From NCBI RefSeq assembly GCF_020515625.1, contig NZ_JAIWPJ010000003.1:558001-622000 (forward strand): a stretch of 64,000 bases of DNA. Reading direction: 5' to 3'. The position numbers and the translations under genes were made by a program. Below, in pieces: positions 56,849 to 61,078 of the stretch. Position 1 is the first letter of the stretch; the number at the start of each line of letters is the position of its first letter. Origin of the DNA: Natrinema amylolyticum (lineage in GTDB: Archaea; Halobacteriota; Halobacteria; Halobacteriales; Natrialbaceae). The notes under the pieces are model-generated. The model was not told where the DNA came from and searched no databases. It was given only the letters and a program-made list of their open reading frames with translations.

Positions 56849-56947
56849 TGCCCGCATTCAGGGCAGCGGGCGATTCAACCTTTCGGAACCAGTAGTAACT
56901 GGCTCGACGGTCGGTCGGCCGGCTCCATCTCGAGCACCCGTCGTTTC

Positions 56948-56978
56948 TTTAAGTGTCTCTGGTCACAAGGTAGAGCTA
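56948..56978 (+). repeat. 31-base promoter-like repeat, copy 1
   Basis: TTTAAGTG-T-CTCTGGTCACAAGGT-AG-AGCTA, matching the copy at 59359-59389 at 28 of 31 positions. The TTTAAG at its start resembles a haloarchaeal TATA box, in which case most of the repeat would be the first transcribed bases. It lies 182 bases upstream of the site-2 protease gene, in a 311-base gap that has no other gene. Confidence 0.7.
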
Positions 56979-57159
56979 TGACGGGAAGACCGCCGTTCTC
57001 TGACGTGCCAATTCGGTAGTCGCGACGCTCTGTCTCTCGAGAGCCGAGTGAAACGACCCGGCAGTAACACCCCTGTAGAGTCCCACGCCGAACGGACGGT
57101 ACGGAACACCGGAAAATCGCTTTCACGTCAACTAAGACCCCGGAGCGACAGCGGAGAGT

Positions 57160-58299
57160 GTGCGAAGTTACACGATCACGGAAATCTGGGGCATCCCCAT
57201 TCGAATCAACACCTCCTTACTGATCTTCCTCCCGATCCTCGCGTGGCTCATCGGGAGCGGCCAGCAGATCGAACTGTACGCCGGCTTCATCGAGCGATTC
57301 ACCGGAACCGGGTTCGACCTCGCTCGGCTCCGCGCCGGGACGACGCCGTGGCTCATCGGTATCACGGCGGCGGTCGGCCTGTTCGCGAGCGTCACGCTGC
57401 ACGAACTCGGCCACTCGTGGGCAGCGTTGCGGTACGGCATCGAGATCGAGTCGATCACCCTGTGGATCCTCGGCGGCATGGCGTCGCTGACGTCGCTGCC
57501 GAAGGAGTGGAACCGCGAGTTCTGGATCGCCATCGCCGGCCCCCTCACGAGCGTCCTCGTCGCCGCCGTCTGTTATGCGGGCGTTCTCGTCGCGCCGAAT
57601 TCGCTTCAGGCGTCCCGGTTCATCGTCGGCTATCTAGCTATCACGAACCTGTTCTTAGCGGGATTCAACCTCCTCCCCGCGTTCCCGATGGACGGCGGGC
57701 GCATCTTCCGCGCCCTCCTGGCTCGCTCCCGCCCGTACGGCACCGCGACGCGGATCGCGGCGCGGGTGGGTGTCATCTTCGCGCTCCTGTTCGCTATCGT
57801 CGGCGTCCTCACGTTCCAGCTCATGCTCATTCTCCTCGCCTTCTTCATCTACGGCGCCGCGACGACGGAATCGCAGAGCGTCCTCCTCGACGAACTGCTC
57901 GAGGGCATCACGGTCGGCGACATCATGACCCGGGATCCCGCGACGGTCTCGGCCGACACGACGCTCGAGGAGTTCGGTGACCGGATGCTCCGCGACCGTC
58001 AGCCGATCCACCTCGTCACGGACGGGAGCGGGGCGGTCCTCGGCGTGATCACGCTCGGCGACCTCCGGACGGCTCGCGGCGACGACCGCGGCACGACCCG
58101 CGTCGACGCGGTCATGCGGGAGATTTCCCGGACCGAGTCGACCGCCGACGCCTTCGACACGCTGGCCCTGCTGAACCAGTCCGGGAGCGGGAACGTGCTG
58201 GTCGAGGAGAACGGGGATCCCGTCGGCGTGCTCTCGAAAGCCGATTACGCGCACGCCATGACGGTCCGGCGCGGCTTCCAGAGCGGTATCAGCGGATAG
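57160..58299 (+). CDS. Site-2 protease family intramembrane metalloprotease with two CBS domains
   Basis: 379 residues. The zinc motif HELGH (residues 87-91, in SVTLHELGHSWAALRYG) is in the second or third helix; the third ligand is the Asp in FPMDGGRIFRALLA near residue 172. About six membrane helices are visible. From residue 245, two CBS domains follow (VGDIMTRDPATVSADTTLEE and VDAVMREISRTESTADAF), which in other proteins bind adenosyl ligands and regulate the activity. It cleaves membrane-anchored regulators in other organisms; its substrate here is unknown. GTG 57160 is used. It has a long leader carrying the 31-base repeat. Confidence 0.92.
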   Translation: MRSYTITEIWGIPIRINTSLLIFLPILAWLIGSGQQIELYAGFIERFTGTGFDLARLRAGTTPWLIGITAAVGLFASVTLHELGHSWAALRYGIEIESITLWILGGMASLTSLPKEWNREFWIAIAGPLTSVLVAAVCYAGVLVAPNSLQASRFIVGYLAITNLFLAGFNLLPAFPMDGGRIFRALLARSRPYGTATRIAARVGVIFALLFAIVGVLTFQLMLILLAFFIYGAATTESQSVLLDELLEGITVGDIMTRDPATVSADTTLEEFGDRMLRDRQPIHLVTDGSGAVLGVITLGDLRTARGDDRGTTRVDAVMREISRTESTADAFDTLALLNQSGSGNVLVEENGDPVGVLSKADYAHAMTVRRGFQSGISG

Positions 58300-58405
58300 T
58301 GCGCTCTATCTCGCCGCTCTGTGCGGCCGGCTGTTTTCGTGCGAAATCGGTTCGGCGAGACGTCGATTCGCTCGTTTTTCGGTCTTCCAGACTCGAGTCC
58401 CGGCC

Positions 58406-59326
58406 ATGGCCACCGTTCCGACGCACGTCCGCGAGACCGTCGACGACCAGCTGGCGGCGATCGAGCGCGCACACGACGTCGCGGTCGTCCTGGCGGTCGC
58501 CCGCGGCAGCCACGCCTGGGGGGCGGCGAGTCCCGACAGCGACTACGATGTCGGCTTCGTCTTCGCGCCGACCGATTTGCGGCGCTACGCCCACCTCGAG
58601 GGCGCTCCCGAAACCGTCGTCGTGGACCGCGGCGAGTTCGAGTATCAGGGCTGGGACGTGCGGACGTTCGCGCGCCTGCTCGCCGATTCGAACGAGGGCG
58701 CGATCGACCTGCTGCGGAGTCCGATTCGCTATCGGCTCGCGTACGATCCCGCTGCCCTCACCGCGTACATCAAGCGGACGTACAATCCGATCGACATCTA
58801 TCACACGTGGCGCGGGATCGCGACGAGCAACTACCGCAAGTACCTCTCGCGGCACCTGGTCCGGAGCGACGACGAGACCTTCCCGATCGTCGATGCCGGA
58901 AGCGAGGAGTACACCGTCGAAACCGACGACGGGACGATGACGGTCTCGGTCGACGACGAGCAGTTCAGCGAGACGCAGACGAGGCCCACGGTCAAGCGAA
59001 ACCTGCTGATCTGCCGCGCGGCCATGTCCGCCTACTACCTCAAAGCGACCGGTGAGTGCAGCGAACACGACCTGCCGGCCCTCGAGTTCGAGACCTTCCT
59101 TCGCGAGCAGGCACCCGCAGTCTTCGACGCCGACCGGATCGACCGCGCTCGCGAGTTGCTCGAGCGGAAACGGGCGGGCGAGGGCGAGGCCGTAATCGGC
59201 GACGCCGTGGGTCGCGAGTTCGCCCACCCGCCGAAAGCGATCGATCCCGAAATTCACGCCCGGGATGGGCCCGATACCGGCCGACTCGACGAGTTCATCG
59301 ACGAGATGATCGATGCGGTTCAGTAG
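58406..59326 (+). CDS. Nucleotidyltransferase superfamily protein (RNA repair/YcgL type)
   Basis: 306 residues. The polymerase-beta fold is shown by LAVARGSHAWGAASPDSDYDVG, with the G-S motif and the two catalytic Asp residues in DSDYD near residues 47-51. EYQGWDVRTFARLLADSNEG and RIDLLRSP-like text (AIDLLRSPIRYRL) follow, and a helical C-terminal half ends with EFIDEMIDAV. It probably moves a nucleotide to RNA or another acceptor; families with this GSxxxG-DxD pattern include predicted RNA repair enzymes. The ATG at 58406 is chosen. No antitoxin-like partner is adjacent. Confidence 0.82.
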   Translation: MATVPTHVRETVDDQLAAIERAHDVAVVLAVARGSHAWGAASPDSDYDVGFVFAPTDLRRYAHLEGAPETVVVDRGEFEYQGWDVRTFARLLADSNEGAIDLLRSPIRYRLAYDPAALTAYIKRTYNPIDIYHTWRGIATSNYRKYLSRHLVRSDDETFPIVDAGSEEYTVETDDGTMTVSVDDEQFSETQTRPTVKRNLLICRAAMSAYYLKATGECSEHDLPALEFETFLREQAPAVFDADRIDRARELLERKRAGEGEAVIGDAVGREFAHPPKAIDPEIHARDGPDTGRLDEFIDEMIDAVQ

Positions 59327-59358
59327 CACGCATCGGAACCGTCTCGCCGCCGATTCTC

Positions 59359-59389
59359 TTTAAGTGCCTCTGGTCACAAGGTGAAGCTA
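59359..59389 (+). repeat. 31-base promoter-like repeat, copy 2
   Basis: TTTAAGTG-C-CTCTGGTCACAAGGT-GA-AGCTA, differing from copy 1 (56948-56978) at three positions. It is 168 bases upstream of the RNA polymerase epsilon gene at 59557, in a 230-base gap with no other gene. The bases after the repeat do not match those after copy 1, so the conserved part is sharply bounded. Confidence 0.7.
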
Positions 59390-59556
59390 CGAAGGGCTTT
59401 TCGCGGACCGATCGTCTCGAACAGCGAGTGCTGGTGCCCGCTATCGCTCGAGAGACGCGTGGATCGCGGGTTCCTGTTAGAAAGCCTGTCTGTCCGTCGA
59501 ACTGGTGTACTGAACGGAGCGAGCCTTTTTCACTCTCCCTCTCCGAGCGACAGACG

Positions 59557-60424: not shown

Positions 60425-61078
60425 ATGGCTGACGCTGACACCGGATCGACACCGGAAACGACCGACCGAATCGAAATCTACGCCGACTACGTCTGCCCGT
60501 TCTGTTATCTGGGGACGCGCTCGCTTGCACAGTACCGCGAGGGCCGCGACGAGCCGCTCGAGGTCGAGTGGCACCCCTTCGACCTGCGGAGCGGGAAGCG
60601 GAACGCGGACGGCTCGATCGATCACGACGTCGACGACGGCAAGGGCGACGAGTACTACGAGCAGGCGAGACAGAACGTCCGCCGGCTGCAGGAGGAGTAC
60701 GGCGTCGAGATGGCACAGGAGATCGCGACCGACGTCGACTCGTTGAACGCACAGGTCGCCTCGTGGTACGTCAAACAGGAGTATCCCGAGCAGTGGGCTG
60801 CGTTCGACGAGGCGATCTACACCGCGCTCTGGCAGAACGGCCGCGACATCGGCGACGTCGACGTACTGGCCGATCTCGCGTCGGACGTCGACCTCCCGAC
60901 CGACGAGATCCGCGACGCGGTCGACGACGAGGGCATCCGTGCGGAGCTCGAGGACCGATTTGCCGAGGCCCAGCAGAAGGGGATCACCGGCGTGCCGACG
61001 TTCGTCTCCGACGGCCACGCCGCCCGAGGCTCGGTCCCGCCGGAGCACTTGGAACGACTCGTCGAGGGCGATCGGTAG
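60425..61078 (+). CDS. DsbA family oxidoreductase (FrnE-like)
   Basis: 217 residues, thioredoxin fold. The active site is CPFC in YADYVCPFCYLGTRSL near residue 25, and the C-terminal part has GITGVPTFV with the cis-Pro. FrnE-type proteins are cytoplasmic disulfide isomerases. No signal peptide. The ATG at 60425 is preceded by TATTAGG at the TATA distance. Its stop is immediately adjacent to the convergent NAD kinase stop (no gap). Confidence 0.92.
   Translation: MADADTGSTPETTDRIEIYADYVCPFCYLGTRSLAQYREGRDEPLEVEWHPFDLRSGKRNADGSIDHDVDDGKGDEYYEQARQNVRRLQEEYGVEMAQEIATDVDSLNAQVASWYVKQEYPEQWAAFDEAIYTALWQNGRDIGDVDVLADLASDVDLPTDEIRDAVDDEGIRAELEDRFAEAQQKGITGVPTFVSDGHAARGSVPPEHLERLVEGDR

Follow-up and report, generated by a model that had tools for sequence, protein, structure and literature searches.

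What does a short sequence do that stands, almost unchanged, in front of two different genes of one haloarchaeal locus, one of which encodes a subunit of RNA polymerase? The question arises from a stretch of 64,000 nucleotides of the Natrinema amylolyticum genome (the window, to which positions refer unless the contig is named), where an initial annotation had noticed a 31-bp repeat at 56948-56978 and 59359-59389. As it had claimed, 28 of the 31 positions are identical, and the flanking genes are those that it named, a peptidase M50 with CBS domains and RNA polymerase epsilon (rpoeps, encoding RpoEps). The identity of the latter follows from the name 'DNA-directed RNA polymerase subunit epsilon' given by NCBI to plasmid orthologues of the window gene, whose product has no Pfam or NCBIfam match.

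The repeat pair and its locus

The core of the repeat, CTCTGGTCACAAGGT, occurs exactly twice in the window, and at four sites when up to three mismatches are allowed, against 0.87 expected. A model built from the sequences of the copies alone finds both of them at E = 3e-13 and no third site in the window. Moreover, the 31-bp pattern with at most three mismatches retrieved eight sites from the whole genome and none for the reversed control which, together with the window counts, rules out a chance repeat. All eight copies lie on one strand of one contig (contig positions 108729; 356797, 356918 and 357034; 481153 and 481283; and the window pair at 614948 and 617359), and a distance of over 100 kb separates six of them from rpoeps. 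Further copies and conservation, which the initial annotation had proposed to look for, were both found, the former in these eight genomic sites and the latter in other haloarchaea. Its statement that similarity ends with the repeat holds only in part: the conserved block continues for about 8-17 bp beyond the predicted start of transcription, where the window copies read TGACGGG and CGAAGGG, and a second, looser box lies further on (Table 1).

Table 1. Features of the locus, in window coordinates. Box 1 holds the TATA box, the core and the predicted start; box 2 is the motif found further downstream.
Feature	Position	Strand	Details
Copy 1, box 1	56938..56996	+	CCG-like triplet upstream; TATA TTTAAGTG 56948-56955; core CTCTGGTCACAAGGT 56957-56971; predicted start A56978; model match 56939-56988, E 3e-13
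Copy 1, box 2 (AGTCGCGACGCT)	57018..57029	+	motif located in window
Site-2 protease with CBS domains, 379 aa	57160..58299	+	PF02163 E 5e-25; PF00571 E 1e-15; ~210 bp after copy 1 TATA box
rlaP-like nucleotidyltransferase, 306 aa	58406..59326	+	between both copies; PF10127 E 8e-30
Copy 2, box 1	59349..59407	+	TATA TTTAAGTG 59359-59366; core CTCTGGTCACAAGGT 59368-59382; predicted start A59389; T4 tract 10 nt further; model match 59350-59400, E 2.9e-13
Copy 2, box 2 (AGCGAGTGCTGG)	59423..59434	+	weaker match; motif located in window
rpoeps, RNA polymerase subunit epsilon, 255 aa	59557..60324	+	orthologues annotated RNA polymerase subunit epsilon
DsbA-family protein	60425..61078	+	PF01323 E 1e-32

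The gene for the DsbA-family protein is a conserved neighbour of rpoeps, in Halobacterium too (the same neighbourhood is seen at loci L187, L108 and L109), and the rlaP-like gene is a frequent neighbour of rpoeps within the family of the window's genome. In relatives, rlaP can have the element directly upstream, with box 2 adjoining its start codon; no copy precedes it in the window's genome (58299-58405). Other small features of the locus can be mentioned here. The box 2-like sequence AGCGACAG is found at 57144-57151 and 59546-59553, where it precedes the site-2 protease gene and rpoeps by at most some 15 nt, and the pattern AG[CT][GC]AC[AG]G has only 24 sites on both strands of the 64 kb. 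A leaderless frame of 13 codons, MTGRxxFSxxxIR, occupies 56978-57019 and recurs in relatives.

Anatomy and spread of the element

The copies share a unit of about 95 bp, which comprises a TATA box, a near-invariant block YTCTGG[T/C][C/G]ACAAGG, the sequence AGATACGARGG at the predicted start and, 30-50 nt further on, box 2 (AGCGACGGC-like). This length is deduced from the frequent tandem copies, whose spacing is never below 93 bp, and from the starts of genes, which seldom fall within 88 bp of an element. Column conservation, computed over 214 copies, begins 10 bp ahead of the TATA box and reaches about +47 from its first base, and the columns read in order a CCG-like triplet, YTC, TTTAAGT, NN, YTCTGG[TC][CG]ACAAGG[TG] and RNAG[AC]TA[CT]GARGG. 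The best candidate for the start is the A at TATA+30, which has a T before it, and the positions TATA+19 and +20, each an A in 99% of the copies, would then be -11 and -10, within a conserved interval of -20 to +8. In this regard, the TATA box and shared transcript start advanced by the initial annotation are well supported across haloarchaea, with a near-invariant TTTAAGT, the AA at -11/-10 and a T-A step about 30 bp downstream, although the starts now predicted for the window (56978 and 59389) lie 5 bp downstream of its guess. As for box 2, an unsupervised motif search over 292 non-redundant copies recovered AG[CT][GC][AG]CGGC[TG]CT from about 90% of them, mainly at TATA+60 to +79; its log-likelihood was 508, while shuffled sequence gave 37 and the upstream control 310. 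Furthermore, a T4 tract follows the predicted start by some 10 nt in 57 of the 292 copies, and a hairpin and then a T-run are seen after some of them (e.g., L064, L068, L083, L087 and L337). A structured RNA was rejected, since the segment from TATA+30 to +89 gives no folding signal (mean z of +0.2 versus -0.06 for the upstream control) and the element matches no Rfam family at E <=1.

Haloarchaeal promoters are laid out with a TATA box, a BRE of the CGAAA type and a 'WW' element at -10 (PMC4983044). The element resembles this core promoter in its TATA-like T/A core, which precedes a predicted purine start by about 27 bp, and the AA at -11/-10 corresponds to the 'WW' element, but it departs from it in a near-invariant block of 14 bp between the TATA box and the start, in being conserved past the start, and in its tie to one RNA polymerase subunit. 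In the copy alignment, a CGAAA-type BRE is absent directly upstream of the TATA box, where positions -3 to -1 are T/C, T/C and C.

The element is widespread but patchy. The TATA-plus-core pattern, with up to three mismatches, is found in all 29 genomes of the genus, in 114/121 of the family and in 110/292 of the class, control matches being almost nil, and the sequence model at E <=0.01 detects the element in 123 of the 292 sampled haloarchaea, with 1-15 copies per genome. In the scan of named genomes, every one with the pattern is a haloarchaeon, among them Natrinema, Natrialba, Natronorubrum, Halopiger, Halorussus, Halococcus and Halobacterium (including H. salinarum DSM 3754). Text searches, with subscription journals and supplements outside their scope, found no published account of such an element; for GGTCACAAGG and its relatives, the papers listed were all unrelated.

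The copies are intergenic, and their orientation is biased with respect to the next gene (same strand in 370 of 435 cases, opposed in 65), whereas the previous gene shows hardly any strand preference (227 and 209). Downstream of the copies, rpoeps (178/472 copies) and rlaP (110/472) are met most often, in counts that are inflated for the rpoeps region, as the loci fetched were those surrounding the best matches; small numbers of copies precede GNAT, DsbA, prs, menA-like and serS genes, the last names being assigned from reading the sequences. In several lineages, a copy faces a convergent rpoeps and points into its 3' end, or is placed shortly behind rpoeps, and many copies therefore cannot be promoters of protein genes. 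Copies at L337 (position 2396, minus strand), L261 and L262 run in this way toward the 3' end of their convergent rpoeps; behind the one at L337 come a perfect hairpin and T5, which make a short RNA of about 55 nt likely there. In H. salinarum, a copy is located 116 bp before rpoeps, and a TATA-like TTTATT some 30 bp before its start codon. At five rpoeps loci the fetched stretch contains no copy. The initial annotation had also suggested a regulon or a common leader, which is possible, but apart from rpoeps and rlaP most copies have varied protein-coding targets or none.

Co-occurrence of the element with rpoeps

The epsilon subunit of the haloarchaeal RNA polymerase has been known for decades (PMC8305020). 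The review of the field describes it as present in only a subset of haloarchaea, states that a polymerase containing epsilon transcribes native templates efficiently, unlike the one without it, and calls its biological relevance enigmatic (PMC8305020). For these reasons, the distribution of the element was compared with that of rpoeps, taking as orthologues the proteins matching the window's RpoEps with E <1e-30, which were found in 122 of the 292 genomes. Element and rpoeps occur together in 121 genomes, rpoeps alone in one, the element alone in two and neither in 168 (Fisher P 2e-79, a statistic that ignores shared ancestry), and outside the family of the window's genome the corresponding numbers are 49, 1, 2 and 166. 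As for the exceptions, the genome with only rpoeps (G260) carries a diverged gene, 40% identical; one of the genomes with only the element has a weak match at about chance level (E 0.006), and the other has its site (E 4e-4) 52 bp downstream of an epsilon paralogue that has diverged. No RpoEps was found outside Halobacteria, in 53 genomes from other classes of the same phylum.

Moreover, genera g11 and g53 are split into species with both and species with neither; G170, a g53 genome that lacks rpoeps, shows a site at the borderline (E 0.013). Halobonum (G214) is the sole sampled member of its family (f4) with a full rpoeps and also the sole one with many strong copies (eight, on several contigs), and most of those located are on contigs other than that of rpoeps. 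The neighbouring rlaP was considered as the partner of the element and rejected, as the two are linked only within one family; outside it they are unlinked (2 genomes with both, 9 with rlaP only, 49 with the element only, 158 with neither), so that synteny alone does not explain the pattern. To judge from this joint distribution, the element is almost certainly tied to the epsilon gene, which is the main point missed by the initial annotation. The window gene is the orthologue of the epsilon of Halobacterium, a subunit already linked to transcription of native DNA (PMC8305020); what differs is that a DNA sequence would now be tied to epsilon, none such having been found in the literature searched.

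The association extends to paralogues and plasmids. Epsilon-like paralogues with 30-40% identity are accompanied by diverged copies (TTTAAGTATTYCTTGCGACAATATGCG in form), located 50-126 bp behind the paralogue (L302, L303, L304, L314, L315 and L317) or 150-180 bp before it (L308 and L309), with core scores of 11.7-33.8 versus a best null of 5.9; at several other paralogue loci there is no diverged copy. In the first six of these loci, paralogue, diverged element and hairpin-like sequence form a compact repeated cassette. Among plasmid epsilon genes, the copies are strong in Halorussus vallis and Halococcus dombrowskii but weak in Halarchaeum and Natrinema thermotolerans. Haloarcula tailed virus 2 (MZ334525; L335 530-1321) also encodes an epsilon-like protein, annotated as hypothetical, with no element within the 2.4 kb read.

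Finally, the sequence around the start distinguishes two variants of the element, of which I is AGATACGA-like and II is CATAGTGAG-like (three labels, left undecided by the script, were set by eye). On a tree of 66 RpoEps proteins, variant II requires 2 changes, a number as low in 0 of 500 shuffles, and host family requires 11, a comparison partially confounded by shared ancestry and by the anonymous family codes. The clade of variant II unites RpoEps proteins of three families, with a single exception elsewhere (L087).

Readings of the element

The element thus has a defined anatomy, spread and conservation, and follows RpoEps nearly one to one, remote copies and paralogues included. We lean towards considering it as a class of haloarchaeal core promoter read by the RNA polymerase that contains RpoEps. 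In this scenario, the epsilon-containing polymerase would use the element as a dedicated core promoter, RpoEps probably making contact with it, and transcription would begin at the T-A step about 30 bp past the TATA box. The products would mostly be short non-coding transcripts, with a predicted end beyond box 2. Since copies precede rpoeps, autoregulation is suggested, and since others precede rlaP, this gene may be a direct target, sometimes driven by the element. Several observations count against this reading: a TATA-like sequence of its own appears to lie close to rpoeps, which would then not depend on the element as sole promoter; several copies face the 3' end of a convergent gene, with no evident gene target; the BRE position is pyrimidine-rich; five rpoeps loci and several paralogue loci show no copy in the stretch fetched; and the resemblance of RpoEps to TFIIB, described below, is not significant. 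The sequence is compatible with epsilon as an activator or as a repressor, and with short transcripts that have a role of their own or none.

An unlikely alternative, albeit the most serious one, takes the copies for members of a family of small RNA genes, which would simply share a strong promoter. The active product would be an RNA of about 50-100 nt, conserved at its 5' end and in box 2, that acts on or with the epsilon polymerase, more or less in the manner of 6S RNA on the bacterial polymerase. The unit of about 95 bp with its minimum tandem spacing of 93, the presence of box 2 in the part predicted to be transcribed, the hairpin and T-run that end some copies, and the copies with no gene ahead would all fit such a family. 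On the contrary, folding (mean z of +0.2) is no better than in the upstream control, the sequence between the boxes is unconserved, Rfam gives no match, and at rlaP the protein begins right after box 2. Compared with 6S RNA-like small RNAs associated with polymerase, the units share a possible production of short RNAs tied to RNA polymerase, but they have no conserved secondary structure, are much shorter and occur many times per genome. The small RNA family proposed by the initial annotation is possible as a product, but a conserved fold is absent.

Archaeal repressors commonly bind between the TATA box and the start. It is conceivable, though a little less probable than a small RNA family, that the block in this interval is an operator at which RpoEps or a co-inherited regulator would bind to repress or autoregulate, the copies being ordinary promoters under one repressor. 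The position of the conserved site, the weak dyad that the block shows in some clades and the frequency of rpoeps as downstream gene (178/472 copies), which suggests feedback, are in line with an operator, whereas conservation that begins 10 bp ahead of the TATA box and continues, with little break, until about 17 nt past the start exceeds the need of one operator, and no common function lies behind many of the copies.

Already disfavoured, and very improbable, is a mobile or recombining repeat that would travel with the rpoeps locus and have no regulatory role: copies do cluster near rpoeps, occur in tandem and reach plasmids, but they are sharply conserved column by column in many families, exclusively intergenic, biased in orientation relative to the next gene and kept at orthologous remote sites (e.g., before prs in several species), and their variant tracks the lineage of RpoEps. 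Least credible of all is that leaderless genes begin at the copies and encode tiny proteins (in the window's genome of 13 aa, MTGRxxFSxxxIR): three copies of this genome have an ATG exactly at the predicted start followed by 13 codons, and a stop falls within 42 codons in 80% of ATG-type versus 50% of ACG-type copies, but the codon at the predicted start of the 292 copies is ACG in 193, ATG in 56, ATA in 18 and GTG in 14, and the peptides vary in length and sequence, their common residues stemming from both DNA boxes. A conserved small peptide as a general feature was rejected on these codon counts and variable peptides.

For RpoEps as a sequence member of the TFIIB family, nothing firm came from Pfam, NCBIfam, a PDB sequence search, hhalign or shuffled Smith-Waterman alignments: 21 RpoEps orthologues have no TFIIB match at E up to 1, and hhalign of RpoEps against the six TFBs of the window's genome is not significant. 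Two AlphaFold2 models (pLDDT 72 and 77) predict a helical core, and the top Foldseek matches of both are Brf2, TFIIB, archaeal TFB (1ais) and cyclin T; their probabilities reach 0.97, but with E values of 0.2-0.6 and TM scores of 0.26-0.42 the resemblance is below significance. The models hence offer a hint that RpoEps may have a TFB-like cyclin fold. In this line, the situation recalls alternative initiation factors such as bacterial sigma factors and haloarchaeal TFB/TBP pairs, in which a fixed promoter sequence is likewise found only where the cognate factor occurs and co-varies with it; the difference is that the candidate here is a lineage-specific RNA polymerase subunit with no significant TFB sequence similarity. 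A broader and more tentative proposal, which we regard as possible but doubtful, is that RpoEps would be a TFB-like (cyclin-fold) promoter-recognition subunit of some haloarchaea, forming with its cognate promoter a transcription channel apart, which would produce short RNAs and regulate the subunit's own gene, with plasmids carrying their own matched pairs of epsilon and promoter.

Present or absent together with rpoeps at many sites, the element is an obvious candidate for what epsilon recognises. Halobacterium salinarum has both the element and rpoeps, which makes a direct test possible. If the proposal is true, an archaeal polymerase would pick promoters through an accessory subunit, somewhat like a sigma factor.
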